Source: Mycobacterium saskatchewanense
GTDB lineage: Bacteria > Actinomycetota > Actinomycetes > Mycobacteriales > Mycobacteriaceae
Assembly (NCBI RefSeq): GCF_010729105.1
Contig: NZ_AP022573.1
Coordinates: 1,612,001 to 1,676,000 of the forward strand
Length of the DNA stretch: 64,000 nt
Direction: 5' to 3'
Below, piece by piece: positions 20,142-63,997 of the stretch (positions are counted from its first letter, which is position 1; each line of letters begins with the position of its first letter). Position numbers and translations under genes: made by a program. The notes beneath the pieces were generated by a model that was not told the origin of the DNA, searched no databases, and worked only from the letters and a program-made list of their open reading frames with translations.

Positions 20142-21454
20142 GCGACCTTGCCCCCGGGCGCGTCGTCGGGCATCGAGACGATCAGGTGGGTGTTGGTGCC
20201 GCTCATCCCGAACGCGGACACCGCCGCGGTGCGCCAGCCATCGACGGCCGGCCATGGCGTCAGCTTGTCCGCCAGCCGCAAGCCCTGGCTCTCCCAGTCG
20301 ATTTCGCGGCTGGGCTCGTCGACGTGCAGGGTCGGGGGTATCGCGGCGTGTTCGGCCGACACGATGACCTTGGCCAGGCCCAGTGCGCCCGCCGCGGCCT
20401 GCGCATGCCCGATGTTGGACTTGACCGATCCGAGGAGCGGGCCCCGTCCGGCCGGCGCGGTGCCGTAACTGGCCGCGAGCGAGAGCAATTCGGCCCTGTC
20501 GCCGAGGCGGGTTCCGGTCGCGTGCCCCTCGACCATCCCGACCCCGGCGGGCTCGACCCCCGCCTGCACCAGCGCGCGCCGAAACAGCCGCAGCTGCGCC
20601 TCACCGCTGGGAGCCATCAGGCCGTTGCTGCGTCCGTCGGAGTTCAGGCCACTGGCACGCACCTGGGCGAGGATGCGCCGCCCGTCGGCCAGCGCCCTCG
20701 ACCGGCGCTGCAGCACGAACATGGCCGCGCCCTCGGCCCAGACCGTTCCGCTGGCATGCGCGCTGTAGGGCCGGCAGTGGCCGTCGTCGGACAGGGCGTG
20801 CTTCTTGGAGAATTCGACGAAATACCCCGGCGTGCCCATCACGCAGACGGCGCCCGCAAGCGCGAGATCGCAGTCGCCGGAGCGGATCGACTGCACGGCA
20901 CTGTGGATCGCCGATATCGCCGACGAGCAGGCGGTGTCGACCGTCACCGCCGGCCCCGCCAGGTCCAGCGTGTAGGCGATGCGCCCGGAGATGACCGCCA
21001 GCGACGTCCCGGTGATCAGATGGCCACTGTGGTGGGAGAACTCGGACAGGCCCGGGCCGTATTCGAGTCCGGAGGCACCGACGTAACAACCCACGTCGTG
21101 CCCGGCGAGGTCGTCGGGGTTCATGCCGCCGTTTTCCAGGCTGCGCCACGCCACCCGCAGCGCGACCCGCTGCTGGGGGTCCATGGCGGCCGCTTCGCGG
21201 CGGGAGATGCCGAAGAAGTCGGGATCGAATGTCGTTGCGCTGGAGAGGAATCCGCCGAGATCACAGATCGGTTTGAAGCCGTCCCGCCGCGATCCGTCGA
21301 AGAGCTCGCGCAGCGCCCAGCCGCGGTCGGCGGGGAACGGGCTGAGCGCCTCCCGCTGTTCGGACAGCAACGCCCAGTAGTCCTCCGGGGTTTCGACCCC
21401 GCCCGGCGCCTCGAGCGCCAGGCCCACGATGACGACGGGGTCGTTATCGGACAT
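20138..21454 (-). CDS. mbtC: MbtC, polyketide ketosynthase
   Basis: 438 residues, a stand-alone ketosynthase. The active-site Cys is in TVDTACSSAISA (Cys176) and the two catalytic His in VEGHATGTRLGD (His311) and SNIGHAQAAAG (His350). It catalyses decarboxylative condensation for the PKS module whose AT, KR and ACP are in MbtD. The ATG at 21454 overlaps the end of mbtB by 11 nt, and the stop overlaps the mbtD GTG by 4 nt. Residue 312 is Ala where many modular PKSs have Gly (HGTGT). Confidence 0.94.
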   Translation of the reverse strand: MSDNDPVVIVGLALEAPGGVETPEDYWALLSEQREALSPFPADRGWALRELFDGSRRDGFKPICDLGGFLSSATTFDPDFFGISRREAAAMDPQQRVALRVAWRSLENGGMNPDDLAGHDVGCYVGASGLEYGPGLSEFSHHSGHLITGTSLAVISGRIAYTLDLAGPAVTVDTACSSAISAIHSAVQSIRSGDCDLALAGAVCVMGTPGYFVEFSKKHALSDDGHCRPYSAHASGTVWAEGAAMFVLQRRSRALADGRRILAQVRASGLNSDGRSNGLMAPSGEAQLRLFRRALVQAGVEPAGVGMVEGHATGTRLGDRAELLSLAASYGTAPAGRGPLLGSVKSNIGHAQAAAGALGLAKVIVSAEHAAIPPTLHVDEPSREIDWESQGLRLADKLTPWPAVDGWRTAAVSAFGMSGTNTHLIVSMPDDAPGGKVA

Positions 21455-48226: not shown

Positions 48227-49387
48227 TCAGTACGAGCGGGGCAGGCCCAGCGAGGTTTGAGCCACGAAGTTGAGGACCATTTCTCGGCTGACCGGCGCAG
48301 TGCGCATGAGCCGGGTGATGAACCACAGCTCGGACAAGCCATATTCATGGGAAAGTCCGTTCCCACCGTGGGTCTGGATGGCCTGATCCAGCGCCTTGAG
48401 GGCGGCCTCCGAGGCGGCGAATTTGGCGATGTTGGCGGCTTCGCCCGCGGGTTGGCCGGCGTCGAACAGTTCGGCGCTACGAGCAGTCGCCATTCGGCCG
48501 ACTTCCACAGCAATGTGGCTTTCCGCCAGAGGATGTGCGATGCCCTGATGCGCGCCGATCGGCGTCGACCAGACCAGTCGTTGTTTGGCGTAATCCGCAG
48601 CTTTGCTCACCGCGTAGCGCCCTACCCCGCCGCAAATGGCACCGACGAGAATCCGTTCGGGGTTCAAGCCGTCGAAGACTTGCCGCAAGCCGTTGCCCGC
48701 CTCGCCGATGAGGGAATCACCTCCGACCGCCACCTCGTCGAGGAAGACGGTGAACTGCTTATCGGGCGACACGATCGACGTGTCGATCTGCTGGTACGTC
48801 AGACCGGGACTGTCGGTGGGGACGACAAATAGCGAAAGGCGGGACTTCTCCGGGCCGGACTTCTCGACGTCGCGGGCGACGACGAGAACGGCATCGCACT
48901 GGTCGATGGCGGAGATGTAATACTTCGAACCCGAAAGCACCCAACCGGTTGCCGTCTTATGAGCGGTGGTCTTGATGTTGTGGCTGTTCGAACCGGCGTC
49001 GGGCTCGGTGATGCTGAAAGCCATCTTTTGGGTGCCATCGGCGATGCCGGGCAGCCAACGCTCCTTCATATGATGTGAACCGTGGTGGGAAAGGATGCTC
49101 CCGCAGATCGCCGGCGAGATGACCCAGATGAGCATTGGCATGCCATGCGCCGCAAGTTCTTCGACCACAACGACGGCTTCGGACATACCACCCCCACCGC
49201 CACCGAATTCCTCGGGCAGGTGCACACCGAGCAAGCCGGCGGCACCGAGGTCTTTCCACAGTTCCCCGACGTCTTGGCCACTGCGGGCTCGCTGCAGAAA
49301 ATATTGTGGCCCATAGCTGTCGGCGATACCGCCTACGCTTTCGCGGATCGCACGGTGCTCGTCGGAGTCGTGGATCAATCCGGGCAT
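48227..49387 (-). CDS. Acyl-CoA dehydrogenase, third copy
   Basis: 386 residues. AFSITEPDAGSNSHNIKTTA in the middle domain, VFDGLNPERILVGAICGG with the Glu of long-chain-type enzymes, HGGNGLSHEYGLSELWFITR near the end. The C-terminal site where other family members have EGT reads TAPVSREMVLNF. It starts 3 nt after the SnoaL-hydratase stop with AGGAAGG inside that gene. Substrate unknown; context suggests it works with the fused hydratase. Confidence 0.9.
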   Translation of the reverse strand: MPGLIHDSDEHRAIRESVGGIADSYGPQYFLQRARSGQDVGELWKDLGAAGLLGVHLPEEFGGGGGGMSEAVVVVEELAAHGMPMLIWVISPAICGSILSHHGSHHMKERWLPGIADGTQKMAFSITEPDAGSNSHNIKTTAHKTATGWVLSGSKYYISAIDQCDAVLVVARDVEKSGPEKSRLSLFVVPTDSPGLTYQQIDTSIVSPDKQFTVFLDEVAVGGDSLIGEAGNGLRQVFDGLNPERILVGAICGGVGRYAVSKAADYAKQRLVWSTPIGAHQGIAHPLAESHIAVEVGRMATARSAELFDAGQPAGEAANIAKFAASEAALKALDQAIQTHGGNGLSHEYGLSELWFITRLMRTAPVSREMVLNFVAQTSLGLPRSY

Positions 49388-49390
49388 TGA

Positions 49391-50602
49391 TTACCTTCCT
49401 GTATACGTCGGAGGGCGCTTAGCCACGAAGGCGGCAATGGCGTCGGCGGCGTCGGCGGTGTCCCCGGTGACCTTGAGTGCGCGTGTCTCCGCGGTCAGCT
49501 GGGCGGACAGATCATTTCGCCAGCTGTCCCGGAGCAGCGCCCGCATGGCCGCGAACCCGACCGTGGGTCCGTGGGCGAGCTCGGCCGCGAATGCCGCTGC
49601 GCGCTCACGGAGTTCCGCCGCCGGCACGACCTCGTTGACCAGTCCCCAATCCAGTGCTTCCTGGGCGCTGATGGGCGTATTGCGCAGGTAGGCCGCCGCG
49701 GCGCGGCGCGGGCCGATCAGTCGAGGCAGGTGCCAGGTCCCGCCGCCGTCGCCGGACAAGCCGAGCCCGGCGAAAGCGGTGACGAATTGGGTGGTGTCGG
49801 CCGCCAGCACGATATCGGCGGCGTAGACGTAGCCGAGTCCCCCACCTGCGACCGCTCCGTGAGCCGCCGTGACGATCGGCGCCTCGACGCGGCTGAGAAT
49901 CTCGAGCGCTTGGTGGAAGGGCATGGTCATCTCGACGAACAGGTCTCCGAAGCCGCCGTTGGCGTTGTCGAGGAAGTACGTGATGTCACCGCCGACGCTC
50001 AGTGCGGCCCCGTTGCCGCAGATCAGCACAGCGCGGACTGTGCTGTCGGCGGTGATGCGCCGAGCGACCTCCAATGTGTCCCAACCCATCTGGAAGTCAA
50101 TCGCGTTGCGGGCCTGGGGGCGGTTGAGACAGACCGTGGCCACACCGTGGTCAACGTGATAATCGATCGTCCGTAGTCGACCACTGCCGTCGAGAGCAGC
50201 GCGCCACGCCGCGGTGTCAGTGAGTTGGCGCAGCGTGGCGATGCGCCCATCGGGGGCGAATCCGATCAGGTGAATGAAGGCGGCGTCAAGTATGTTGCCG
50301 CTACGACGCGCCGATCCGCGGTAGGTACCGCTCACCATGAGCCGGCCATCCTCGAGCACCTGGAAGGCCTCGGCGACGGCACGGGCCTTGAAGTGCTCGC
50401 CGATCCGCCACCACAGTTTGTCGCGCATGGCGTCAGGGCCGACATGGATTCCGCCCATGCCCAGCGGCAGTCCTTCCGCGGCATGCCCGACGAAGTCCGG
50501 ATGCAGCAGCCGGCTCAGAGCATCGCGGTTGCCGGATGCCAGCCCCTCGTACAGACCTCGAGCGGCAGAGATTTTCGCGTCCCTTAAATGATCAGCCGAC
50601 AT
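49391..50602 (-). CDS. Fusion of a SnoaL-like domain and an enoyl-CoA hydratase/isomerase
   Basis: 403 residues in two parts. Residues 1 to about 140 are a SnoaL-like alpha-beta barrel (GLASGNRDALSRLLHPDFVG; FIHLIGFAPDGRIATLRQLTD). Residues about 145-403 are a crotonase: VATVCLNRPQARNAIDFQM, the oxyanion segment SVGGDITYF, and GAVAGGGLGYVYAADIVLAA followed by FAGLGLSGDGGGTWHLPRLIG. The joining is in frame with a short linker, with no sign of a lost stop. Crotonases hydrate or isomerise enoyl-CoA; the SnoaL part may give a second activity, such as an aldol-type or hydratase step. ATG at 50602 overlaps the preceding small ORF by 11 nt. Confidence 0.88.
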   Translation of the reverse strand: MSADHLRDAKISAARGLYEGLASGNRDALSRLLHPDFVGHAAEGLPLGMGGIHVGPDAMRDKLWWRIGEHFKARAVAEAFQVLEDGRLMVSGTYRGSARRSGNILDAAFIHLIGFAPDGRIATLRQLTDTAAWRAALDGSGRLRTIDYHVDHGVATVCLNRPQARNAIDFQMGWDTLEVARRITADSTVRAVLICGNGAALSVGGDITYFLDNANGGFGDLFVEMTMPFHQALEILSRVEAPIVTAAHGAVAGGGLGYVYAADIVLAADTTQFVTAFAGLGLSGDGGGTWHLPRLIGPRRAAAAYLRNTPISAQEALDWGLVNEVVPAAELRERAAAFAAELAHGPTVGFAAMRALLRDSWRNDLSAQLTAETRALKVTGDTADAADAIAAFVAKRPPTYTGR

Positions 50603-51755: not shown

Positions 51756-52285
51756 AAATCGAGCGGGACATAAGTCGCTGATACGACTTCCTCAAGAAAC
51801 CGGTTAGTCCGGCGCCCGGCGTCTCCGGTCGTCGGCGCAAAGGAACCGCAACGACGCCCGGAACGAGTCCTGCCTGGAGTCGACACGCCGGTGACCTCCT
51901 CAGCACTTTTGAATCCGTAATAGATGCCTACGGACCACGCTACTCCTAGAACCCGCGGCTGCCTGGCAGTCGGCTTGATCCCACCCTTTGGGCACCGCGA
52001 TCAGCACCGACGATGCGCCGGTCGTGGCACGGCATGCGCCTTTCGAGAGCATCGCGTCAAGCCGCTCTTTGAACCACGTAGCGAGCCGGCGTGAACGTCG
52101 GGCACGGCTCGCGCCTGTGCACACCGACCGGTCCGGTGCACGTGCCGCCAAACTGACTGCGCGCATGGACAACTGTCGCCTCCAGCATCGGGTGAAACTG
52201 GTGATGACGGAGCACCAGCCTCGTGGTTGGTGCACGAGCAGCGCGGGGGCTGTCATCGATGCGGACTCAAGGGGGACCCAAGAGC
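51756..52285. other. Intergenic, no supported gene
   Basis: About 530 nt between the PucR remnant and the acyltransferase. A minus-strand frame at 51900-52310 (WFKERLDAMLSKGACRATTG inside) has no start signal and no family I can name. Codon use is unlike the neighbouring genes. Probably more debris of the same deletion events. Confidence 0.4.
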
Positions 52286-53536
52286 GTGACACGAGAAATG
52301 ACTGCGGCAAAACCTAATACCTATCTTCGTGGGCTCGGCTCACAGGAGCGCTTTTTCTGGCGTTACGCTCAGCGCAATCCAGGGCACTTCGTGCTGGCCG
52401 CCGAATTTGACTTAAATTTGGATGCGCGGCGAGTCCGTGACGCCCTCGACGCCGTGCAGCGCCGCCACACATTGTTGTCAGCTCACGTCGAAGACGATCC
52501 AGAATTGCGCCTGGGGTTCTACCGCAACGACACGGTGGCACCGATCACACTTACGTGTCACCTTGACCTCACCGAAGACTGGCAGGTGATCGCTGCCGAC
52601 GAACTGACCCGGCCCCTCGATCGCTCGGCTGCTCCGTTCGTGCGGGCGGCACTTCTCACCAAGGGCGAACAGTCGACCCTCCTGCTGACATTCGACCACG
52701 TCATCGCCGACGGCATTTCGGCGTTGTTGGTGCTCAACGATTTGTTGGTCGCGTTGAACGGCCAAGCGTTGGCACCACTGGAATTGCCGATATCGGTGGA
52801 GGACTTGGTCAGTCGTAGGCTCGGCCCTCCTCAGGGAACTGTGTCGCTGGAGGCCGGTGATCCGCGCATTGCTGCGCCGACCTCGTTTCGACCGTTTGAC
52901 GCTACCCCGCAGCACCTGCACAGGGTTCAGATGAGCCGCGCCGAGACTGAGCGTCTGATTGCGCGCTGCCGTGCAGAAGGAACAACCGTACATGCGGCGA
53001 TTGTGGTTGCCGCCTCCGTCGTGCGCAGCGCGGAATCCGCCGAGGAATTCGTTCGCACGTACAGCCCGATAAACGTCAGGGATTTCCTCGGTCAGCGTGC
53101 CGGTAGCTGCGTATGCATCGGAGGTGCCCTCACCGGCATGACACCGGGCGACGGAACTCCTTTTTGGAGTCAAGCTCGCCAGGTCAGCAACCAGCTGAAC
53201 GCCGCCAGGTCGGCCGCTGGCTTGGCGGCTGGGTCGGCGATAGCCGAGCAATTGTTGCCCATTGACGCTGATTGCGACGCGGCAGAGCACTTCTTTCGCA
53301 CTGTTTTACCGTTTGAACTGGCGATTACCAACCTTGGTGTACAAGATTTCCCTCGCATTGGACCGGTTCGGCCACGGGCCGTCTGGGGGCCAATGGTGCT
53401 CACGCAAGTCGAACGCGAGTACGTGACAGGCATCGTGACCTACGGAGGCCAACTGCGTATGGTCACATGCGGACACTCCCCCACGGCCGGCTTCCTCGAG
53501 CGCGTCCGCGAAATGTTGCTCGGCATCGGGTCATAA
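52286..53536 (+). CDS. Condensation-domain-like acyltransferase (PapA/WES-like fold)
   Basis: 416 residues from the GTG at 52286, preceded by AAGGGGG; ATGs at 52259 and 52298 are also possible. The catalytic HxxxD is in LLTFDHVIADGISALLVLND near 148-165, and the second half has YSPINVRDFLGQRAG and LPFELAITNLGVQDFPRIGP, matching stand-alone condensation-domain proteins such as the Pap acyltransferases. These move acyl groups from a carrier or CoA to an alcohol or amine. No PKS or NRPS genes are nearby. Somewhat lower GC than neighbours. Confidence 0.8.
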   Translation: MTREMTAAKPNTYLRGLGSQERFFWRYAQRNPGHFVLAAEFDLNLDARRVRDALDAVQRRHTLLSAHVEDDPELRLGFYRNDTVAPITLTCHLDLTEDWQVIAADELTRPLDRSAAPFVRAALLTKGEQSTLLLTFDHVIADGISALLVLNDLLVALNGQALAPLELPISVEDLVSRRLGPPQGTVSLEAGDPRIAAPTSFRPFDATPQHLHRVQMSRAETERLIARCRAEGTTVHAAIVVAASVVRSAESAEEFVRTYSPINVRDFLGQRAGSCVCIGGALTGMTPGDGTPFWSQARQVSNQLNAARSAAGLAAGSAIAEQLLPIDADCDAAEHFFRTVLPFELAITNLGVQDFPRIGPVRPRAVWGPMVLTQVEREYVTGIVTYGGQLRMVTCGHSPTAGFLERVREMLLGIGS

Positions 53537-53702: not shown

Positions 53703-55469
53703 TCACGAGTCCGTGCACGGTGCCCCGTTGGCGCCGGCCTGACCTCTTGGACGGAGTTGTTGCGCCCGAAGCTGCTCGGCGAGCCGGAACTTCTGGACCT
53801 TGCCGGTGGGGGTGAGCGGCAGGTCTTCGGGCCGGTAGAGCACAACTTTCTTGGGAACCTTGAACCGCGCCACCTTGTCTCGGCACATGGTGAGTACGTC
53901 GTCTTCGGTGATACTTGCCCCGGGTGTTGGAACGACCACCACGCAGCCAATTTCACCCCACCGTTCATCGGTCAGGCCGATGGCGAAGGCTTGGCTGATG
54001 TCCTCGTGGCCGGCCAACAGATCCTCGATCTCCTTGGGCATGACGAGCTCTCCACCGCTCTTGTAGAGCTCTTTGCTGCGGCCCGTCACCTGCAGGTAGC
54101 CGTCGGCACGAACACGGCCCAGATCCCCCGAGTGCAACCAGCCGTCGCGCATCGCGTTGGCGGTGTCGGTCGGCCGGTTCCAATAGCCGATCATCGTGGC
54201 CGGCCCGGCAGACACCAATTCGCCCTCAGCACCGACGGGGACGTCCTCACCGGTGTCCGGGTCCACTGCGCGATAGGCCACCAAGGCGTCGCTGCCGGAT
54301 ATCCCGGCCGCGCCCGCGAGCTTAGGTCGCCCGACTGTTTCGGCTGTCAGCGATAGCGGATCCTCGGGCAGGGTCAGCGTCATGGCTCCCCCACACTCCG
54401 TCATGCCGTAGCCGGTGACGATCTCGTCGACACCGAAATCACGTACGATCTGCTGCCACAACCAGATTGGCGCCGCGGCGGATCCGCACAAGAGGGCTCT
54501 GAGCGAACTCAGGTCGTAGTCGGCACGTACCGGACTCTCGACCATCGCGACGGCCATTGTGGGCACGCAGAGCATATCGGTGGCCCGATACTGTTCGATG
54601 CCGCGAAAGTATCCTTCGGCGGTGAAGCGCGGCTGCATGACCACCGCCCCACCGACGAACATCACCGACAACAACCCCTCCACGTAGCCGAACATGTGGT
54701 AACAGGGCAGAGCGAACAAGACCCGCCGCCCGTCTTCATACGCGCGGGTCAGCGCCGAGGCGTAGGCGGTGCGAAGTACGCCGTCGTGGGAGATCACGAC
54801 CCCCTTGGGCGAACCGGTGGTTCCGGAGGTGTACAGCATGTCTCCGGGACCCGACGGGTCGACCTCGAGACTTGTTGATCGGTGCCGGCTGTATTGGCCC
54901 AGCCGGGCCAGCTCCGCGACCGACATGACGCCAAGGCGTATCGGCTCTTCGGTTTCCACCAGCACGACACGGCGCAGGGTGGGCACTGGGTCCGCGTTCG
55001 GCCGCCGTTCGGCGAAACCAGGGGTGTCCCATCCTGGAACGATGTCGTCGAGCATGGATTGATAGTTCAAGGCGGCGAAACTGGTCATCGACACCAGGAC
55101 TCGGCACCCCGAATCGGCAAGGACGAAGGCCAGTTCGTCGCGGCGATACAGATAATTGAACGGGACCGCGACCGCGCCGAGGCGCGCGATGGCGAATTTC
55201 AGGGTGACGAACTCGGGGTAATTGGCCATCAGCATGCCGACCCGGTCGCCGGGACGGACCCCCAGTTCGCTCAGTCCCGCAGCCAGCCGATGCGAATGCT
55301 CCGCCACTTCCCGGTAGGTCAGGGTCGCCGTATCGGACAACACGAACGGACGGGAGCCGAAATCGGCAGCGCAGCGATCCAGCCACTCGGCCATGCTGCG
55401 GACATGCCACACCGGGAATCGGTCACGCAGGGCCCTACGACGTGCGGCAACGTCCGGCTCCCGCCTCAT
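53703..55469 (-). CDS. Acyl-CoA ligase (FadD), copy A
   Basis: 588 residues of the ANL superfamily. ATP-binding P-loop DMLYTSGTTGSPKGVVISHDG near 213-233, GYGMTECGGAMTLTLPEDP, the hinge GDLGRVRADGYLQVTGRSKELYKSGGELVMPKEIE and the C-terminal Lys in PLTPTGKVQKF. It makes an acyl-CoA through an acyl-AMP. The ATG overlaps the stop of the next ligase upstream as ATGA, so the two ligases are co-translated; both follow an SDR. Either could replace the dead ligase at 44.4-44.9 kb. Confidence 0.92.
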   Translation of the reverse strand: MRREPDVAARRRALRDRFPVWHVRSMAEWLDRCAADFGSRPFVLSDTATLTYREVAEHSHRLAAGLSELGVRPGDRVGMLMANYPEFVTLKFAIARLGAVAVPFNYLYRRDELAFVLADSGCRVLVSMTSFAALNYQSMLDDIVPGWDTPGFAERRPNADPVPTLRRVVLVETEEPIRLGVMSVAELARLGQYSRHRSTSLEVDPSGPGDMLYTSGTTGSPKGVVISHDGVLRTAYASALTRAYEDGRRVLFALPCYHMFGYVEGLLSVMFVGGAVVMQPRFTAEGYFRGIEQYRATDMLCVPTMAVAMVESPVRADYDLSSLRALLCGSAAAPIWLWQQIVRDFGVDEIVTGYGMTECGGAMTLTLPEDPLSLTAETVGRPKLAGAAGISGSDALVAYRAVDPDTGEDVPVGAEGELVSAGPATMIGYWNRPTDTANAMRDGWLHSGDLGRVRADGYLQVTGRSKELYKSGGELVMPKEIEDLLAGHEDISQAFAIGLTDERWGEIGCVVVVPTPGASITEDDVLTMCRDKVARFKVPKKVVLYRPEDLPLTPTGKVQKFRLAEQLRAQQLRPRGQAGANGAPCTDS

Positions 55470-57106
55470 AGCTCGTCCAACTCGTTACGCAGGATGGCCT
55501 CGCGCAGCGCGAAACGGCGGACTTTGCCGGTCGCCGTCACCGGGAACTGATCGGCGAGAAACCACCGCACTGGCACCTTGTAAGCGGCCATGCGTGCGCG
55601 ACAGTGGGCGATCAGATCATCTTTCAGCGCGCTGCGACGGAGGCCCGCCCCCCGGCAGACGACGCATACGATTTCACCGAGTCGGTCGTCGGGCAGCCCG
55701 ACCGCGACGGACTCCTCGACGCAGTCGAATTGAGTCACGACGCGCTCAATCTCCGCCGGCGAGAGGTTCTCGCCGCCGCGGATGATGAGTTCTTTCAACC
55801 TGCCGGTGACGGTGATGAATCCACGATCGTCCATGGTCCCGAGATCCCCGGTTCGCAAAAACCCGTCGGCGTCGAGCGCCCGTGCCGTGCCCTCGGGGTC
55901 GTGCAGATACTCGACGAATTGTTGGTATCCGCGCGCGCAGATTTCGCCCGTTTGTCCGACCGGCACGACGTGACCCTCGCAGGGATCGATGACCTTGCAG
56001 TCCACCTGCGGCAGTGGACGTCCGACGGTACAGAGGCGGTCGGCGTGGCTGTCGGATGGCCGGGTCAAGGTGAGCACCGGCGCGAGTTCCGTTTGGCCGT
56101 AAAGGTTGTAGACGTTGGCACCGAACACCGCTGCGGCGCCATCGATCAGCTCGGCGGATACATCGGCAGCGCCGCCCATGATGATGCGCAACGCGGGCGC
56201 CGGCTCGTTGCTGGCACGCTGGTGTTCCAGCAGGGCGCGAAGCAGGGTTGGCACATAGAACAGCACTGTGGCCCCATGCGCGCGAAGGGCGCTGAGCGCA
56301 GAGCCGGGGGTAAACCGCCCGCACACCACGGCCGTACCGCCTACCCATAACGGCCCTAGGGTGGCGATCACACATCCGGCGGTGTGGAAAAGAGGAAGCG
56401 GGTTCATGCAGACCGCGGCCTTCGGGACCCGGGTCGCTTCCATCGTGAGCTTGGCGACGTTCACCAGTGCGCGGTGGGTCAGCAACACGCCTTTGGGTAG
56501 ACCGGTGGTCCCGGACGTGTACTGCAACATGACAGGAGTGTCCGGATCGACCGGTGCGCGTGAAAAAATATGAGGGTCAACGCCGGTGGACTTCCACGCG
56601 GCAGTGTCCGACAGCGAAACACGTCGCAGTCCGGCAATGTCGCGGCATACCCGCTCCGCGACATCGACCATCCGGTAGTCGCGGCTGACGTCGGCGTGCA
56701 GCAGCACGCTGGCCCGACAATGCCGTAATGCGTAGTCCAGTTCGCTTTCCCGCAGCAGCGGGTTCAGCGCTACCAGCACCACACCGGCCAGGGCCGCCCC
56801 GTATTGAATGAGCGTCCACTCCACCACGTTGGGCGCCCAGAGCGCCACGAAATCGCCGGGGTCTGCGAGCGCAGCCAGCGCGCCCGCTACGCGGCGGGCC
56901 TCCTCGAACAACTCGGCATAGCTCAACTGCACGCTATCGCCGCCATCATGGCTCGCCGCGACGAGCGCCTTGCGCCCGGGATGCTCGGCAGCACGCGCGG
57001 CCAGCAGCCCTCCCACGGTGTCATCGACTAGAGGCACGCTGCGGTCTGCGGCCCAGAAGGCCTCGGCCAGTTGGCGTGTGGCACACCCCGCCGGGGACGT
57101 GGTCAT
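55466..57106 (-). CDS. Acyl-CoA ligase (FadD), copy B
   Basis: 546 residues from the ATG at 57106; an open lead to 57235 is low-complexity Arg-rich and is rejected. P-loop VMLQYTSGTTGLPKGVLLTH near 192-211, YNLYGQTELAPVLTLTRPSD, hinge GDLGTMDDRGFITVTGRLKELIIRGGENLSPAEIE and Lys in PVTATGKVRRF. Same reaction as copy A, but the substrate-binding middle is clearly different, so the two likely act on different acids or successive intermediates. 74 nt behind the SDR gene. Confidence 0.92.
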   Translation of the reverse strand: MTTSPAGCATRQLAEAFWAADRSVPLVDDTVGGLLAARAAEHPGRKALVAASHDGGDSVQLSYAELFEEARRVAGALAALADPGDFVALWAPNVVEWTLIQYGAALAGVVLVALNPLLRESELDYALRHCRASVLLHADVSRDYRMVDVAERVCRDIAGLRRVSLSDTAAWKSTGVDPHIFSRAPVDPDTPVMLQYTSGTTGLPKGVLLTHRALVNVAKLTMEATRVPKAAVCMNPLPLFHTAGCVIATLGPLWVGGTAVVCGRFTPGSALSALRAHGATVLFYVPTLLRALLEHQRASNEPAPALRIIMGGAADVSAELIDGAAAVFGANVYNLYGQTELAPVLTLTRPSDSHADRLCTVGRPLPQVDCKVIDPCEGHVVPVGQTGEICARGYQQFVEYLHDPEGTARALDADGFLRTGDLGTMDDRGFITVTGRLKELIIRGGENLSPAEIERVVTQFDCVEESVAVGLPDDRLGEIVCVVCRGAGLRRSALKDDLIAHCRARMAAYKVPVRWFLADQFPVTATGKVRRFALREAILRNELDEL

Positions 57107-57180: not shown

Positions 57181-58041
57181 TTAAACCGGGTTGGCGCCGA
57201 GTTTGGCGGCGGACATATCGCTGATCTCGCTCCACCGGGCGGTGATCTCCGACAGGTCGGGAGGTGCAGTGAAGGTGACGCCGTCGTTCTGGAAGATGGC
57301 GACGCGCTGAACCAAACCGCCGCCGACTACGAAAACCGATCCGCTGTCGTGGTTCTCGTCGGAGACCAGGTAGCCGACCGCGGGCGCGACGAGCTCTGGG
57401 TCGAGCTTGTCCAGCATCTCCCGGGGCGCGATGTCGGCCGTCATCCTGGTGGCCGCGAGCGGTGCGACGGCATTGGCGGTGATTCCGTATTTGGCGCCTT
57501 CGATGGCAAGGGTGTTGGTCAGCCCCACCAAACCCGCCTTCGCGGCCCCGTAATTGGACTGCCCGAAGTTGCCGTACAGGCCGCTGGTTGAGGTCGCCAC
57601 CACGACGCGTCCGTGTTTCTGCTCCCGCATGTGCGGCCAGGCCGCTCGGACCACGTGATAGCCCCCGTAGAGATGCACTTTGAGCACCGCATCCCAGTTG
57701 TCGTCGGTCATCTTGTGGAAGGCGCCGTCGCGCAGGATTCCGGCGTTGCTGATGACCGCGTGCACGGCGCCGAACTCCGACAACGCGGTGTTGACGACGG
57801 CTGCGGCACCGTCGGGGTCGGCCACCGAATCGTAGTTGGCCACCGCTCGACCACCCGCGGCTCGGATCTCCTCGACGACCTCGTCGGCCATCGACGTTCC
57901 CGCGCCCGAGCCGTCGCGGGCACCGCCGAGGTCGTTCACCACCACCAGCGCTCCGTTGGCCGCCAGGAATCGCGCATAAGCGCGGCCCAAGCCTCCGCCC
58001 GCACCAGTGACGATCACAACCCTGTCCTGGACTCCAGACAC
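57181..58041 (-). CDS. SDR of the MFE-2 (3R)-hydroxyacyl-CoA dehydrogenase type
   Basis: 286 residues. VVIVTGAGGGLGRAYARFLA, the MFE-2-type VVVNDLGGARDGSGAGTS loop, NAGILRDGAFHKM, catalytic Ser in VVVATSTSGLYGNFGQ and YxxxK as YGAAK. These features match the dehydrogenase part of peroxisomal multifunctional enzyme 2, which oxidises (3R)-hydroxyacyl-CoA. GTG start with GGAGGGGG upstream. First gene of the SDR-ligase-ligase operon. Confidence 0.9.
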   Translation of the reverse strand: MSGVQDRVVIVTGAGGGLGRAYARFLAANGALVVVNDLGGARDGSGAGTSMADEVVEEIRAAGGRAVANYDSVADPDGAAAVVNTALSEFGAVHAVISNAGILRDGAFHKMTDDNWDAVLKVHLYGGYHVVRAAWPHMREQKHGRVVVATSTSGLYGNFGQSNYGAAKAGLVGLTNTLAIEGAKYGITANAVAPLAATRMTADIAPREMLDKLDPELVAPAVGYLVSDENHDSGSVFVVGGGLVQRVAIFQNDGVTFTAPPDLSEITARWSEISDMSAAKLGANPV

Positions 58042-58166: not shown

Positions 58167-59369
58167 TTAGATTCTTGTGCGCGGTGTACGGGACACGATC
58201 GACACAAACGACACACAGCCGCCGGGCCGTCCACCCAGATTGTGGGTGAGCGCGGTGTGCGGGTCGGACAGCTGCCGTTCGCCGGCCTCCCCGCGGAACT
58301 GCAGCCATGCTTCATAGAGCATCCGCAGGCCACTCGCTCCGACGGGATGGCCGAACGACTTCAGGCCACCATCCGGATTAACCAGGAGCCGACCGTCGGC
58401 GTCGAAGTCACCGTCCAGCACGTGCTTCCACGCGTGGCCGACATCACAGAAGCCCAAGTCTTCCATGAGTACGATCTCGGTGGGGGTGAAACAGTCATGC
58501 ACTTCGGCCAGCGAGAGCTGTGCTGCGGGTCGGTCTATGCCCGCCTGGGCGTAGGCGTCTTTGGCGGACTTGACGACCTCGGGGAAGGTAGTGAAGTCGT
58601 ACCGGGAATCCATTGCAGCCCGGGCGGACCCGGCGACCAGCGACAGCGCTTCGACATACATCGGCGCGGCGGTGTAGTCCAAAGCGCGCGCGGCGGGAAC
58701 GATCAGCGCGCACGCGGCCCCGTCGGAGACACCCGAACAGTCGAACACACCGAGCCGTCCGGCCACCTTGGGCGCATTGTCAATGGTTTCCCGGCTGACG
58801 GGGGAACGGAACTGCGCCTTGGCATTTCGGGCTCCGTTGTCGTGATTCTTCCACGCGACATGGGTCATCGCGGCGCGCATTTCGTCAGCATGCACGCCGT
58901 GGCGCGCGCAGTAGGCTGGATCGAGCATGGAAAAGGCCGCCGGAGCGGTCATCGACAACTCCGGGGCAGTACCGTCGCCGGGCGGGTCTTGGCGCAGCAA
59001 TCCCGAATAGCCGGAATCTTTGAGCTTTTCGACGCCGACGGCCATGGCGACGTCATAGGCTCCGGCCGCCACGGCGTAGCAGGCGTTGCGGAATGCTTCG
59101 GAACCGGTCGCGCAGAAGTTTTCCACCCGGGTCACCGGTTTGTCATCGCTGCCGATGGCCCGGCTCAGGGTCAGCCCGCCCAGCCCCGAACTCAGTGTCC
59201 CCAACCAGTAGGCGTCAATGTCGTCGGCGCGGATACCCGCGGGTGTGTCAAGACACTCGCGATACGCCTCCAGGATCAGGTCGTCGGTTGAGGCTTCCCA
59301 TCGCTCGCCGAACCGGCTGCACCCCATCGCTACGACCGCCACCTTGCCGGTTATGCCCTTACTCGGCAT
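58167..59369 (-). CDS. SCP-x-type thiolase-like protein
   Basis: 400 residues from the ATG at 59369; an upstream lead to 59516 lies in the neighbouring gene. Thiolase fold of the SCP-x branch: nucleophile region VENFCATGSEAFRNACYAVA, EVHDCFTPTEIVLMEDLGF, and GLKSFGHPVGASGLRML; the C-terminus ends LGGRPGGCVSFVSI. SCP-x thiolases often pair with DUF35 OB-fold proteins, and the gene just upstream (11-nt overlap) ends in a DUF35 domain. Likely a thiolase or retro-aldolase step on a branched or cyclic acyl-CoA. Confidence 0.88.
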   Translation of the reverse strand: MPSKGITGKVAVVAMGCSRFGERWEASTDDLILEAYRECLDTPAGIRADDIDAYWLGTLSSGLGGLTLSRAIGSDDKPVTRVENFCATGSEAFRNACYAVAAGAYDVAMAVGVEKLKDSGYSGLLRQDPPGDGTAPELSMTAPAAFSMLDPAYCARHGVHADEMRAAMTHVAWKNHDNGARNAKAQFRSPVSRETIDNAPKVAGRLGVFDCSGVSDGAACALIVPAARALDYTAAPMYVEALSLVAGSARAAMDSRYDFTTFPEVVKSAKDAYAQAGIDRPAAQLSLAEVHDCFTPTEIVLMEDLGFCDVGHAWKHVLDGDFDADGRLLVNPDGGLKSFGHPVGASGLRMLYEAWLQFRGEAGERQLSDPHTALTHNLGGRPGGCVSFVSIVSRTPRTRI

Positions 59370-60714
59370 CGTCTTGGATCGCCTTCCAGAAGTAGTCGTG
59401 CACAGCGCCGGCGGTGAATAACCGGCGGAAGCTGAAACGCACTCGGGCACCGACTCGCAGCTGGTCGGGCCGGGCGTCGGCGACCTCGAGGGTGCAGCGT
59501 CCGCCGCCGTCGACATCGATCACCGCCTGAACCATTGGCGGCGAAGGGGAAAACGCGAGACGATCCACGGTGTAGGTGACCACCGTGCCGCTCAGCCGAG
59601 AGGCTGGCGCCGGATCCATCTCGTCGGTCGCCCCGCAGGACCGGCAGACCCTTACCGAGGGTAGGTGAGTAAAACCACAATGGCGGCAGCGTGATCCGGT
59701 AAGACCGAATTTCCATCGCGCGGCCCGTGAGGCGGGCGGTGCCGCGGAGCGATCGGGTTCGGGCCGCCGGGGCGGCTCAACGGCGACCAGCCCCCGCCAA
59801 GACAGATACCTCAGGTGTTCAACGACAGCGCCCTCGGCACGCTGGTCGCTGAGTGGGCGGGGCTGACGAGCACCGGACAGCTGCGCGGTGGTGCGTAGCA
59901 CCATGGCATCGCAGCCGTCGGTGGCCGAGAGCACCAGCACCGTTTCGCCCGGTTGGGCGATGTCGAGCGCGCCGCACAACGCGATCAGTGCGTCGGCGGC
60001 CCCACTGAACCCTGCCGCGGAGGTGCTGACCGTCTTCTGTCCTTTCACCAGTGTGTGCGCGCGCTTGACGACTCCGCTGTTGGGACAGGCCAACACGACA
60101 TGGTCGGGGTCGGCGATCCCCGCGGCGTCGAGCGCGCCGCGGGCGGCGCTGCGGATGAGGGCCGCATACCGCTGGCCACCGAACCGCTCCTCCCACTGCT
60201 GGCCGGTGATCGCGGTGGGGTCGCGCCATCGGTCGAGGAACTCTTCGGTGACCGACCGTGACGCGAGGTGCTCGGCGATCACGTCTCCCGCACCGAACAG
60301 CAGGGCCGCGGCCCCATCGCCGCCCAACTTCTCGTCGGCCGAACCGGGTTTGCCGACCCGCACATCAGCGGCGACCACCAGTCCCCCGCCGTTCGCCGCA
60401 GCAGCCATGGCAGCGAACGCGCTGCGCCCCGTCCCGCACATGTCGGCAGCCAGCACGTCAGGGGGCAGCCCGAGCGCTGCGTGGAGGGCCGTGGCGTTGG
60501 TTTTGTCGGCGTAGGCCGGCGAGCTGGTGGCAAAGTACAACGCCGCGGGCGCAACGGTGGATGTCACCAGATGGCTGGCGGCGGCCACAGCCATGGTGGT
60601 CGAATCCTCGTCGTACGAAGCGATTACCCGGTCCCCGCCGCGCATCCCGATGTCCTGGCCGCACAGTCGGTGGCGCGGCAGGTAGCTGGCGTAGCCCAAG
60701 AGGCCGGTGTTCAC
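59359..60714 (-). CDS. HMG-CoA-synthase-like protein fused to a DUF35 zinc-ribbon/OB-fold domain
   Basis: 451 residues from the GTG at 60714 (GTGA overlap with the thiolase stop). Residues 1 to about 310 resemble archaeal-type HMG-CoA synthase: LLGYASYLPRHRL, YDEDSTTMAVAAA, ATSSPAYADKTNATALHAAL, and LDIAQPGETVLVLSATDG. Residues about 335-451 are a DUF35 unit: zinc ribbon CRHCGF and CRSCGA, then an OB fold with VVTYTVDRLAFSPSPPMVQAVID. In the synthase part the nucleophile region reads AADMCGTGRSAF; by alignment the catalytic Cys position holds Gly, and the FHQPN His position reads LACPN. It probably does not make HMG-CoA. It may act as a partner or scaffold for the flanking thiolases. Confidence 0.8.
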   Translation of the reverse strand: MNTGLLGYASYLPRHRLCGQDIGMRGGDRVIASYDEDSTTMAVAAASHLVTSTVAPAALYFATSSPAYADKTNATALHAALGLPPDVLAADMCGTGRSAFAAMAAAANGGGLVVAADVRVGKPGSADEKLGGDGAAALLFGAGDVIAEHLASRSVTEEFLDRWRDPTAITGQQWEERFGGQRYAALIRSAARGALDAAGIADPDHVVLACPNSGVVKRAHTLVKGQKTVSTSAAGFSGAADALIALCGALDIAQPGETVLVLSATDGCDAMVLRTTAQLSGARQPRPLSDQRAEGAVVEHLRYLSWRGLVAVEPPRRPEPDRSAAPPASRAARWKFGLTGSRCRHCGFTHLPSVRVCRSCGATDEMDPAPASRLSGTVVTYTVDRLAFSPSPPMVQAVIDVDGGGRCTLEVADARPDQLRVGARVRFSFRRLFTAGAVHDYFWKAIQDDAE

Positions 60715-61919
60715 GCAACCCCCCTGAATAGCGCGGCCAGCCCCTGCCCGCCCCCAATGCACATCGTCTCCAACGCAAGGCCGCCGCGGCGGCGGCGAAG
60801 TTCGTGCAACATCGTGGTGAGAACCCGTACTCCGGTGGCGCCGATCGGATGGCCCAGCGAAATACCCGATCCGTTGACGTTGAGCCGGTCGTCCACGTCG
60901 TCGAGCTTGACTCCCCAGCCCGAGAGCACCGCCAACACCTCCACGGCGAATGCCTCGTTGATCTCGATGAGATCGAGATCGTCGAGACCCACGTTGGTCC
61001 TTTTGAGCAGCTTTTCGACCGCGCCCACCGGACCGATGCCCATGCGGGAGGGCTCGCAGCCAACCGCCGCCCAGCTTTCCAGGAAACCAATTGGCTCCAG
61101 CCCAAGCGCGTCGAGGTGGTCTTCGCCGACGACCAGACAGGCTGCGGCGGCATCGTTTTGCTGACTGGAGTTGCCGGCCGTGACGGTGCCGTCAGGGATG
61201 ATGGGGCGCAGCCGCGCCAGGGTTTCGACCGTGGACTCGGGCCGGATCCCCTCGTCACGGTCCACCACGATGGGCTGGCCCCGGCTTTGTGGGACCTCCA
61301 CGGCGACGATCTCGCCGTGGAACATCCCGGACCGCTGCGCGGCGGCTGCACGCTGATGACTGCGCGCGGCGAACGCGTCAGCTGATGCGCGCTCGATGCC
61401 GTGGTCAACGGCCAGGTTCTCCGCGGTTTCGATCATTCCGCTGATGGGTCCGAAACGCCATACCGGCTGGGAGAGCTCGCGTCCGCGGTCGAGCCGATCG
61501 TAGAGGATTTGGTTTCCCGACCGCGCGCCCCATCGCGTCGTGGTGGTGTAGTGCTCGATGTTGCTCATGGACTCGACGCCGCCGGCGAGCACCACGTCGG
61601 CCGCGCCAGTCTGCACCGTCATCGCGGCGGTGATCACGGCTTGCAGTCCCCCACCGCAGCGGCGGTCGATCTGCAGGCCCGGCGTGCTGACCGGCAAGCC
61701 GGCGTGCAGAGCCGCCCACCGCCCGATGCACGGCGCCTCGGAATTGGCGTAGGACTGAGCGAACACCACGTCCTCGATCAGTTCTGGGTCGATAGCACTC
61801 TGCGCTACAACGGCTCTGATGACATGGGCGGCCAGGTCCTCGGCGCGCATCGGGCGAAGACTGCCACCGAAAGTTCCCACCGCTGTGCGCAGCGGAGCGA
61901 CGATCGCGGCGCGCCTCAT
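60711..61919 (-). CDS. Acetyl-CoA C-acetyltransferase (thiolase)
   Basis: 402 residues from the ATG at 61919, which overlaps the stop of the small gene upstream as ATGA. Complete active site: LQIDRRCGGGLQAVITAAM (nucleophile Cys), SLGHPIGATGVRVLT (His) and LETMCIGGGQGLAALF (Cys). Distinct from the thiolase at 36.7 kb. It lies in the Rieske oxygenase operon, next to the HMG-synthase-like fusion and the SCP-x thiolase. Confidence 0.92.
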   Translation of the reverse strand: MRRAAIVAPLRTAVGTFGGSLRPMRAEDLAAHVIRAVVAQSAIDPELIEDVVFAQSYANSEAPCIGRWAALHAGLPVSTPGLQIDRRCGGGLQAVITAAMTVQTGAADVVLAGGVESMSNIEHYTTTTRWGARSGNQILYDRLDRGRELSQPVWRFGPISGMIETAENLAVDHGIERASADAFAARSHQRAAAAQRSGMFHGEIVAVEVPQSRGQPIVVDRDEGIRPESTVETLARLRPIIPDGTVTAGNSSQQNDAAAACLVVGEDHLDALGLEPIGFLESWAAVGCEPSRMGIGPVGAVEKLLKRTNVGLDDLDLIEINEAFAVEVLAVLSGWGVKLDDVDDRLNVNGSGISLGHPIGATGVRVLTTMLHELRRRRGGLALETMCIGGGQGLAALFRGVA

Positions 61920-62173
61920 GTCGCCTCGCCTCGCCACCGGTCAGCCGACGGATCCAGCAGCTTCTCGAGGCGTTCGGGGGGCAGCCACACGATCGCCTCG
62001 AGTTCCAGGGCGTCCAGGTAGCGCACCCGTCCGGTACGCAGATCTTCTAACCGCAACCGTGGCGAGTTGCCGCGATCGTCGACACTGACTGCCACATCGG
62101 CGAATTCGCTGCCGATCACCGGCCCCGCGCCAGGCACGGTGACCGGCGCGGAGGCGTCGAACTCGATGCCCAT
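61916..62173 (-). CDS. Small protein encoded with Rieske oxygenase, function unknown
   Basis: 85 residues. Good start (GGAGGAGCGGTC before ATG). The C-terminal half is protein-like (TGRVRYLDALELEAIVWLPPERLEKLLD); there are no cysteines or known motifs. Small proteins at this place in ring-hydroxylating dioxygenase operons are often labelled dihydrodiol dehydrogenase, but nothing here supports a dehydrogenase fold. 11 nt after the oxygenase beta subunit and overlapping the thiolase. Confidence 0.7.
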   Translation of the reverse strand: MGIEFDASAPVTVPGAGPVIGSEFADVAVSVDDRGNSPRLRLEDLRTGRVRYLDALELEAIVWLPPERLEKLLDPSADRWRGEAT

Positions 62174-62184
62174 GACCGCTCCTC

Positions 62185-62721
62185 CTAAATCAGAAAGCCC
62201 AGGGTGGGAACGGGCTTGTCGTTGTCGACGAGCACCACCTTCTTGAAGGCCAGCCGCATGCCATCGCCCACCCGACGGATCCGGTAGGTGGCGCGTCCGC
62301 CCCACAGGTGGGTCCCCCGCGCGCGCGCTTCCAGCACCAGGAAGTTGGCCGCGACTTCCAGATCGACACCGCCCTCGGGATTCGACCGTCCCCCAAGCCA
62401 TTCGATGTTGGACAGCAGGTGGCGCAGATGCGATGGCGGCGCCTGGGCGTAGCGCCTGCCGGTGCGGACTTGTTTGAGCCGTGTGGAGATGCGGCTGCGG
62501 TTGTCGAAAATGATGGACATCTGGCCCGCCGGATCCGTGGTGTTCGGCGCCGCGGGCACCCAGTACAGGGCATCATCGGTCCACAGCGCCTCCCAGCTGT
62601 CGTAGTCGCTTTCGTCGGCGTACCGGGCTTCGCGGTAGAGGAACTGCTCGATCTCGAATCGGTCGAAACCCGCGGGGATCGGACCGAGCTCGGTAGCGGG
62701 ACTCGTCGTTGACGCGGTCAT
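62185..62721 (-). CDS. Aromatic-ring-hydroxylating dioxygenase, beta subunit
   Basis: 178 residues, the NTF2-like small subunit of two-component Rieske oxygenases. FEIEQFLYREARYADESDYDSWEALWTDDALYWVPAA is the family's N-terminal signature, and RHLLSNIEW with a C-terminal FKKVVLVDNDKPVPTLGFLI completes it. It supports the alpha subunit in an (alpha-beta)3 complex. 7 nt behind the alpha subunit gene. Confidence 0.92.
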   Translation of the reverse strand: MTASTTSPATELGPIPAGFDRFEIEQFLYREARYADESDYDSWEALWTDDALYWVPAAPNTTDPAGQMSIIFDNRSRISTRLKQVRTGRRYAQAPPSHLRHLLSNIEWLGGRSNPEGGVDLEVAANFLVLEARARGTHLWGGRATYRIRRVGDGMRLAFKKVVLVDNDKPVPTLGFLI

Positions 62722-62728
62722 GGCGGTG

Positions 62729-63997
62729 TCAGTCCTTACTCATCAAAGCCTGGTAGTGAGACCAAAATGCGCGCATCCCGGTCTCATCGGTGGCCGCGCC
62801 GATCGTGAACCCCGCGTCGTCGACGGTTTCACGGTTCAAGCCGCGGCGGACGTCCAACCACTCGGGAGAGAGGGCCGCAAGGCCCTGTTGGTTGCGTTCA
62901 TACATTTCGGTGTCATCGGCCAGCAACATGCCGGCGGGACCCACCGACCCGATGCATTGGGACACCATTCTGCGATTGAGTTCGTGCGCGCCGGCAAGTT
63001 GGACCGCGGTGGAGTACTGGACACACTCATCGACGGCAACCGGCTGGATGTTGAAGACCTGGATTTCGGCGATGAACAGATTCGGGAAGATCATCACGTG
63101 CGGGCCGCCCTCGATCAGGATCTGCTCAGCGGCGGCGCCGTGCAATCGGCGCATCGCCGACACATATTCGGGGACTCGCGATTCCGTGGTGCCGAACCAT
63201 CGCATCGGTTCGGCGAACTTGCGAAACTCCGGGCGCAGGTCGTTTTCGCTGTGCCCGCCGCCCAGATCCCGGGTAACGGCCGCCGAGGAGTCGCTGTAGA
63301 GAGGAGCGATCGTGGAACCGGTGACCCCGAAGATAGAGCCGTGCACGAACTGCGGGTGGTAACCGTCGGTTTCATTCTCGGCGAGCAGTTTCCAGTTTGC
63401 GCGGGTGAGGTGCTGCAGCCAGCCCGCGGTCAGCTCAACGCGTCCCAATGGTGACAGCCGGGTCAAGCGGTCGATCTCGCCGGCGGCGGCCCCGAGGTGC
63501 TCGAGCAGGCAGGGGCCGTCTGCGGCGAAGCTGCCGAACACAAAACCGCCGTAGGAGTCCACGCGGGGCACCCGCCCCATGGGCAGGTCGAGTTTGCGCC
63601 CACCGTATCCCTTGAAGAAAGGGAACCCGACTAGTTCTCCAGTGTTGCGAAAGGTCCACCCGTGGTAGGGGCACCGGAAGGTGCTCGAGTTGCCTCTGGC
63701 GTCGTCACAGACCTGGTTTCCGCGGTGTGAGCACCGGTTGAGGAGCAGATGGATCTGGCCGTCGCGGTCCCGGGTCATGATGACGTCTTGCGGCCCGAGC
63801 TTTTTCCGCACGTAGTCATTGGGCTGACTGACTTCGCTTTCGTGACCCACGAATACCCAAGTGCGATACCAGATTTTGTGCAACTCTTCAGCGAAGATCG
63901 ACGGGTCGGTGTAGAGCGAGCTGTGCACCTTGTCGGGACGGATCAGCTGCTCGTAGCGCGCGCCGGTCGACGCCTCGGGTTGGCTGACCGATGTCAT
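62729..63997 (-). CDS. Aromatic-ring-hydroxylating dioxygenase, Rieske alpha subunit
   Basis: 422 residues, complete; the ATG is 3 nt from the window end. Rieske centre: CSH at 89-91 and CPYH at 109-112 (RCSHRGNQVCDD; RCPYHGWTF). Mononuclear iron site: NETDGYHPQFVHG with Asp211, His214 and His219. It hydroxylates an aromatic or unsaturated ring with O2, using electrons from a reductase and ferredoxin that are not seen beside it; the ferredoxin and reductase at 39-41 kb or genes outside the window could serve. First gene of a six-gene operon reading toward 58.2 kb. Confidence 0.94.
   Translation of the reverse strand: MTSVSQPEASTGARYEQLIRPDKVHSSLYTDPSIFAEELHKIWYRTWVFVGHESEVSQPNDYVRKKLGPQDVIMTRDRDGQIHLLLNRCSHRGNQVCDDARGNSSTFRCPYHGWTFRNTGELVGFPFFKGYGGRKLDLPMGRVPRVDSYGGFVFGSFAADGPCLLEHLGAAAGEIDRLTRLSPLGRVELTAGWLQHLTRANWKLLAENETDGYHPQFVHGSIFGVTGSTIAPLYSDSSAAVTRDLGGGHSENDLRPEFRKFAEPMRWFGTTESRVPEYVSAMRRLHGAAAEQILIEGGPHVMIFPNLFIAEIQVFNIQPVAVDECVQYSTAVQLAGAHELNRRMVSQCIGSVGPAGMLLADDTEMYERNQQGLAALSPEWLDVRRGLNRETVDDAGFTIGAATDETGMRAFWSHYQALMSKD

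Follow-up and report, generated by a model that had tools for sequence, protein, structure and literature searches.

We analysed a 64,000-nt stretch of the Mycobacterium saskatchewanense genome (assembly GCF_010729105.1, contig NZ_AP022573.1, positions 1,612,001 to 1,676,000 of the forward strand), hereafter the window, which is part of a single 6.0-Mb contig and whose own numbering is used throughout. Our subject is a gene pair transcribed, like the rest of its locus, on the minus strand: HF, a fusion of a 3-hydroxy-3-methylglutaryl-CoA synthase (HMGS)-like domain with a DUF35 domain, and SX, a sterol carrier protein 2 (SCP2)-type thiolase. Together with another thiolase, T1, they occupy positions 58167-61919, and the three open reading frames (ORFs) have no internal stops. 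The overlaps are 4 nt between T1 and HF and 11 nt between HF and SX, and the original prediction, which a model had made from the letters of the window, was right both in its coordinates and in describing overlapping genes; the synthase-like part is indeed fused to DUF35, in one 451-aa ORF sited between the two thiolases. In the order of transcription, the locus consists of genes for Rieske oxygenase alpha and beta subunits, an 85-aa protein, T1, HF and SX, followed after a gap of 125 bases by a short-chain dehydrogenase/reductase (SDR) and two CoA ligases (Table 1).

In HF, the HMGS-like domain covers approximately residues 1-305, and the DUF35 zinc-ribbon/OB part approximately residues 330-448. 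The N-terminal part matched the NCBIfam HMG-CoA synthase models below their cut-offs (NF003274, 114.2 vs 244 bits; TIGR00748, 67.2 vs 353.35 bits), and is predicted to share the HMGS fold of the thiolase superfamily. The predicted model of HF agrees best with the synthase-like members of four complexes, namely archaeal thiolase/HMGS/DUF35, PhlACB, CsATase and MucABC, and a profile built from 28 relatives matched 6ESQ chain I (2e-50), PhlA (6e-50), Chromobacterium PhlA (2.5e-51) and MucA (4e-26), which bears out the predicted kinship to the archaeal complex.

Opposite Glu82, Cys114 and the catalytic His of 6ESQ, the window HF has Ser, Gly and Ala, and the profile alignment and a separate MAFFT alignment agree on this. 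The active-site block is ungapped, with DLEFACK of 6ESQ opposite DMCGTGR of the window and Cys114 opposite Gly96, while the His of VFHQPN is found opposite the Ala of VLACPN. Loss of the catalytic Cys and His, as had been claimed, is thus seen in two alignments. Cys93, which had been named as a residue that might yet belong to the active site, is aligned with Glu111, three residues ahead of Cys114; in a smaller alignment, only 24 of 53 rows have Cys at this position, and a role as shifted nucleophile was therefore rejected.

The MAFFT alignment has 98 rows, 87 of them fused (window included; matched stretch longer than 400 residues) and 11 short. In none of the 87 fused rows is Glu, Cys or His retained at the three sites, two rows being gapped at the Cys column, and the residue at the former Cys position is variable (G, A, L, V, P, T, M, I or Q). 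At the three sites, E-C-H is found in both armed controls (6ESQ chain I and the Thaumarchaeota protein L050), C-G-Q in PhlA and its Chromobacterium relative, and C-E-Q in MucA. Among the short rows are L037, a truncated copy from a mycobacterium, and L115-L119, five rows from actinobacteria (with L119 classed as short on length alone), all disarmed. Of these, L116, L117 and L118 are HMGS-like proteins that are unfused yet disarmed; each precedes part of an ORF resembling an SCP2 thiolase, and they represent another actinobacterial family. The loss of Cys, for which a family-wide check had been proposed, is common to the whole fused family, and HF, as far as aligned residues can tell, is a family without the HMG-CoA synthase active site. 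In a tree obtained by a quick method, rooted on the armed rows and containing several long branches, 92 rows (87 fused and 5 short disarmed) form an HF group with an SH-aLRT value of 99, within which the window HF groups with Mycobacteriaceae, and PhlA, CsPhlA and MucA form a separate Phl/Muc group (99).

The C-terminus of HF matched zf-ChsH2 and OB_ChsH2_C (DUF35) above the Pfam cut-offs. All four zinc-ribbon Cys are present in the window HF, and each is kept in 46-47 of 53 rows; they are lost, deleted or partly lost in L033, L034, L038, L039, L040, L041 and L055. Because of these losses, zinc is probably not needed throughout the HF family.

SX, in contrast to the disarmed HF, has the residues of an active thiolase. 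It scored 605.5 bits against NCBIfam NF004810 (cut-off 403), is closest to an archaeal acetoacetyl-CoA thiolase (1.1e-52), and carries Cys86, the motif HDCF (291-294) and His341 of a GHP motif. Cys86, His291, Asp292, Cys293 and His341 are invariant in 86 of 86 SX rows, which comprise the window and 85 of 86 partners, one partner being too short. The YDHF/YDCY-type aldolase motif is absent, and HDCF and the nucleophile Cys are present instead.

The two genes are constantly paired. In relatives, SX is the next gene after HF, on the same strand and within 175 bases, for 86 of 86 fused HF ORFs, and 48 of these pairs are overlapping or gapless; the loci for this count were collected by HF search, not by pair search. 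Of these loci, 29 (L086-L114) were taken as the top-ranked matches in a phylum-wide sample of 296 genomes, of which 53 gave matches, some only short and unfused; from the lower-ranked matches, the five short ones L115-L119 were retained. When partial HF matches were included in an earlier count, 48 of 50 rows had SX next to HF, and the other two are L037, located at a contig end, and L050, the armed archaeal protein on a short contig. The pair was found in Actinomycetota, Chloroflexota, Myxococcota and plasmids of Pseudomonadota.

T1 behaves differently, and the trio of the original prediction is not upheld as a unit. T1 is adjacent in 32 of the 50 HF rows, once at just 40% identity, and on these counts its membership in a complex was rejected. 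Among the 32 rows, 31 hold a Rieske alpha gene and the remaining one, L037, is a contig fragment with a partial Rieske gene; five Rieske loci have no adjacent T1, and T1 is not adjacent in Rieske-free HF-SX loci. Since T1 is optional and absent beside the Rieske-free pairs, it belongs to the Rieske operon rather than to the HF-SX pair, and is probably a separate enzyme. It scored 638.2 bits against NCBIfam NF004853/PRK06205 (cut-off 551), and its closest solved structure is the beta-ketothiolase 5BYV.

The features of the locus are listed in Table 1.

Table 1. Genes of the HF-SX locus in the window, in the order of transcription
Feature	Position	Strand	Basis or remark
Rieske oxygenase alpha, benzoate dioxygenase-like (below that model's cut-off)	62729..63997	-	Pfam Rieske + Ring_hydroxyl_A
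Rieske oxygenase beta	62185..62721	-	Pfam Ring_hydroxyl_B
Conserved 85-aa protein, family unknown	61916..62173	-	Adjoins Rieske genes in relatives
T1, classical 3-ketoacyl-CoA thiolase, 402 aa	60711..61919	-	ATG...TGA; Pfam Thiolase_N/C
HF, HMG-CoA-synthase-like + DUF35 fusion, 451 aa	59359..60714	-	GTG...TAA; GTG start overlaps T1 stop
SX, SCP2-type thiolase, 400 aa	58167..59369	-	ATG...TAA; Pfam Thiolase_N + Thiolase_C_1
SDR, MFE-2 (3R)-hydroxyacyl-CoA dehydrogenase type	57181..58041	-	Kinship to solved MFE-2 dehydrogenases
Acyl-CoA ligase 1 (likely substrate activation)	55466..57106	-	NCBIfam acyl-CoA ligase models; all of the 25 matches listed below curated cut-offs
Acyl-CoA ligase 2	53703..55469	-	NCBIfam acyl-CoA ligase models; all of the 25 matches listed below curated cut-offs

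Rieske alpha scored 177 bits against TIGR03229 (cut-off 781), and its start is overlapped by 4 bases by the last of three crotonase-family genes lying upstream in the genome (L068). The SDR matched solved structures of the multifunctional enzyme type 2 (MFE-2) kind (2ET6, 2.6e-137; 17beta-HSD4 1GZ6, 2e-81; 3OML, 5.2e-73). Pfam and NCBIfam scans gave no match for the 85-aa protein, which is kept next to Rieske genes from Mycobacteriaceae to Conexibacter and Pseudonocardia. Positions 48227-50602 (minus strand) hold an acyl-CoA dehydrogenase, with below-cut-off resemblance to the models for acryloyl-CoA reductase and cyclohexanecarboxyl-CoA dehydrogenase, and a protein of 403 aa that is an enoyl-CoA hydratase in its C-terminal part and, by eye only, SnoaL-like in its N-terminal part. 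A condensation/PapA-like gene (52223-53536, plus strand; Condensation above cut-off, PapA_C just below) lies on the opposite strand inside the catabolic block. Further off, at 7625-20255 (minus strand), nonribosomal peptide synthetase/polyketide synthase (NRPS/PKS) genes have condensation, adenylation, carrier, acyltransferase and ketoreductase domains in three large ORFs, the ones covered by the domain scan; a fourth large ORF is found near them at 21444-25688.

In relatives, HF-SX is accompanied by genes for Rieske oxygenase, ligases and enzymes of crotonase type, and in several loci also for acyl-CoA dehydrogenase. Rieske genes are present in 36 of 50 HF rows, and HF-SX also occurs without them; a scan of 10 neighbour proteins from three Rieske-free loci (L033, L039 and L044) gave a mixed set with no common substrate. 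For the substrate of the pathway in the window, the models for cyclohexanecarboxyl-CoA dehydrogenase, cyclohexanecarboxylate-CoA ligase and oxepin-CoA hydrolase were matched only below curated cut-offs. A copy of the Rieske-T1-HF-SX cluster is carried by the Mycobacterium avium plasmid pP7a (L053), typed mobilizable; upstream of the cluster lie a ligase gene and three genes related to enoyl-CoA hydratase.

On these grounds we consider it probable that HF and SX constitute one heteromeric degradative enzyme, of which SX is the sole catalytic subunit and the disarmed synthase part a structural partner. We infer a physical complex built like archaeal thiolase/HMGS/DUF35 and PhlACB, with breakdown as its direction. 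SX would cut a 3-ketoacyl-CoA, perhaps a bulky or cyclic one, by thiolysis (retro-Claisen cleavage), with Cys86 as the nucleophile and the cysteine of HDCF as the acid/base. The DUF35 part of HF would clamp SX onto the synthase-like part, which, having no Glu, Cys and His, may form a wall or the floor of a shared CoA/acyl cavity, and the fusion would set one synthase-like domain per DUF35. Since an SDR of MFE-2 type stands beside SX, a 3-hydroxyacyl-CoA would be oxidised by it to the 3-keto form, which SX would then cut with CoA. The Rieske enzyme, the CoA ligases and the enoyl-CoA hydratase homologues would act upstream of HF-SX, and T1 would be a second, ordinary thiolase in the pathway. The idea of reuse for degradation with the synthase fold as a scaffold therefore stands as regards the catabolic surroundings, while the role as scaffold or partner is one that we infer. 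As for the two chemistries that had been offered, thiolytic retro-Claisen cleavage is favoured over a retro-aldol step of Ipf/Ltp2 type, because SX has the full set of thiolase residues and the MFE-2-type dehydrogenase adjoins it.

Several points weigh against this interpretation. The nearest studied disarmed relatives, PhlACB and CsATase, make C-C bonds and do not break them. An SDR with at least 45% identity is found in only 24 of 56 HF loci, although some loci do not extend far enough to include it. The next-best SX relative in the same genome (42%) stands without HF, because the genome holds a single full-length HF, and a thiolase of this type is thus viable alone. Over 28 mycobacterial loci, mean identity to the window is 68.5% for the HMGS-like domain, 71.8% for Rieske beta and 82-85% for Rieske alpha, T1 and SX. 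For the two ligases, whose catalytic role is hardly in doubt, it is 63.2% and 67.7% (22 loci each), no higher than for HF, and since they diverge as much, the argument from the tempo of HMGS-like divergence is weak. Finally, D133 (51 of 53 rows) and W174 (52 of 53) are conserved in HF and absent from 6ESQ chain I and PhlA, which could mean new chemistry.

A more far-reaching version of the proposal, which we regard as speculative and unlikely to hold as a whole, is that HF-SX founds a widespread catabolic thiolase class, where the ring part of a tethered acyl-CoA is held or chemically processed in a chamber derived from the former synthase site while SX cuts, as a reversal of the archaeal substrate-sharing machine. 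Its Rieske operon would then encode an aerobic route not described before: CoA activation of a ring acid, dearomatisation by the Rieske enzyme, and ring opening through crotonase-type and thiolytic reactions.

Alternatively, the synthase-like site may have gained a new reaction, such as hydrolysis, decarboxylation or lactone opening of a ring substrate, with R97, D133 and W174 as active residues. In addition to the conservation of D133 and W174, position 97 is Arg in 53 of 53 HF rows and Lys in 6ESQ chain I and PhlA. The former Cys position, however, varies freely, and the conserved residues can equally be explained as interface or fold residues, so that we think this explanation improbable.

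It is also rather improbable, by a little more, that HF-SX is a retro-aldolase similar to Ltp2/ChsH2 and Sal/Shy, for which this activity in steroid degradation has been shown, and to IpfDE of ibuprofen degradation, for which it has been proposed; the pair would then cut a beta-hydroxyacyl-CoA formed by Rieske attack on the side-chain-bearing ring carbon. Known aldolases also have DUF35 partners, and Rieske alpha is 42.5% identical to the Rieske alpha of pIBU218, where it is clustered with Rieske beta, the thiolase-like IpfD, the OB-fold protein IpfE and a ligase. Because of this Rieske kinship, a retro-aldolase by analogy with ibuprofen degradation was initially preferred, and it was set back by the SX residues that the pIBU218 protein lacks: the latter reads SEGSTAV, without the nucleophile Cys, and YDAF, and has no GHP, whereas the nucleophile Cys and HDC are kept in 86 of 86 SX rows. 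Known retro-aldolases carry YDHF (Ltp2) or YDCY (Sal), and, in the accessible part of the source, the nucleophile position of Sal is Gly (PMC12329534). Moreover, the adjoining MFE-2-type dehydrogenase would yield the 3-keto form, and HF-SX is also present without Rieske genes.

A PhlACB-like C-acyltransferase or condensing enzyme, working in the building direction and feeding a natural product, has a slightly smaller chance still. PhlA, CsPhlA and MucA are the nearest disarmed relatives of solved structure, and the NRPS/PKS genes lie approximately 38-51 kb off within the window; on the other hand, the neighbours of relatives are the catabolic genes described above, HF is outside the Phl/Muc branch in the quick tree, and no NRPS/PKS is annotated in 25-kb stretches from some relatives, whose length leaves room for one farther away. 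That the synthase-like part is a decaying relic, kept only as carrier of the fused DUF35, would fit the loss of all three catalytic residues, the lower conservation of the domain compared with SX and the pIBU218 thiolase-like protein accompanied by DUF35 alone, but is highly improbable given its presence in 87 of 87 fused rows from several phyla, in HF-based searches that SX loci without the domain would escape, and its 21 invariant positions (residues 1-305) among 28 diverse rows.

It is already known that DUF35 and thiolases form complexes and that PhlA belongs to the thiolase superfamily but is inactive, and fusions of DUF35 domains to proteins of that superfamily have been described (PMC2954200). 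A literature search, with few subscription papers in reach, found no description of a fused, disarmed HMGS-DUF35/thiolase pair; what appears new, as far as that search shows, is a large family of fused proteins on a branch of its own, disarmed throughout and in constant company of an armed SCP2 thiolase, in apparently catabolic clusters. Labels of "HMG-CoA synthase" in breakdown clusters are misleading; the present result points to the likely working partner of this family, which allows the genes to be re-annotated and the pathway to be put to the test. That a disarmed synthase subunit exists outside the branch of PhlA and MucA also raises the question of why such thiolases need a dead second thiolase fold.

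Among known systems, the archaeal complex differs from HF-SX in that its synthase is armed (Glu82, Cys114 and His) and biosynthetic and its DUF35 is a separate protein, whereas HF is disarmed and fused. In PhlACB, which assembles as an (A2C2)2B4 heterododecamer, as in HF-SX, a disarmed HMGS-like part, in which Cys is replaced by Gly and Glu and His are lost both in PhlA and in HF, is accompanied by a thiolase having a nucleophilic Cys (C86 in SX, 86 of 86 rows) and by a DUF35 zinc-ribbon/OB component. According to the accessible part of one report, only PhlC acts in acyl transfer, and the sites of PhlA and PhlC adjoin one cavity closed by PhlB (PMC6392133); that of another states that Cys88 of PhlC is essential in CsATase (PMC12955522). 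PhlACB/PpATase (PDB 5M3K, 5MG5) and CsATase (9SKH) are, however, encoded by three separate genes and catalyse C-acylation for diacetylphloroglucinol, while HF-SX has two genes, with HMGS-like and DUF35 parts in one ORF and the three parts in two proteins, and PhlC is a distant match to SX (8.6e-19). The multi-component acyltransferase MucABC of Streptococcus macacae (PDB 9VBO), so named in PDB entry titles, is unfused and remote in sequence (19% identity); among the papers listed by a literature search, none used the name MucABC.

As in the HF-SX locus, genes for a ligase, a DUF35/OB protein, a protein of thiolase fold and a Rieske oxygenase, related to that of the window, are clustered on pIBU218 (IpfABDEF), but there is no HMGS-like gene among its annotated features, and IpfD is without the thiolase residues, a loss that fits the retro-aldol step proposed for the ibuprofen pathway. 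In the accessible part of their work, the authors who proposed this step for IpfDE also name IpfDE a thiolase. An ipf-like set, consisting of a thiolase-family protein without thiolase residues, an OB-fold protein, Rieske alpha/beta and ligases, is found on plasmid pDK3 of Rhodococcus sp. DK17 (L058).

A plasmid of Novosphingobium sp. ES2-1 (L069), a strain which we take to be an estradiol degrader, encodes an HF that is fused and disarmed, with SX next in line; genes for acyl-CoA dehydrogenase, SDR and hydratase lie beside the pair, and the cluster also holds a separate lipid-transfer/OB-fold pair. The same gene set is listed for the estrogen edc cluster of N. tardaugens by Ibero et al. (2020), who could not assign a place in the pathway to its HMG-CoA synthase homologue EGO55_13555 (PMC7793797). 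As far as the accessible text shows, the EGO55_13555 operon has the L069 gene order except for one extra small gene and a gene fusion, the two being linked through layout and annotation only. By analogy with HF-SX, EGO55_13555 may be a dead synthase partner of the adjacent thiolase EGO55_13550, a role that can be tested.

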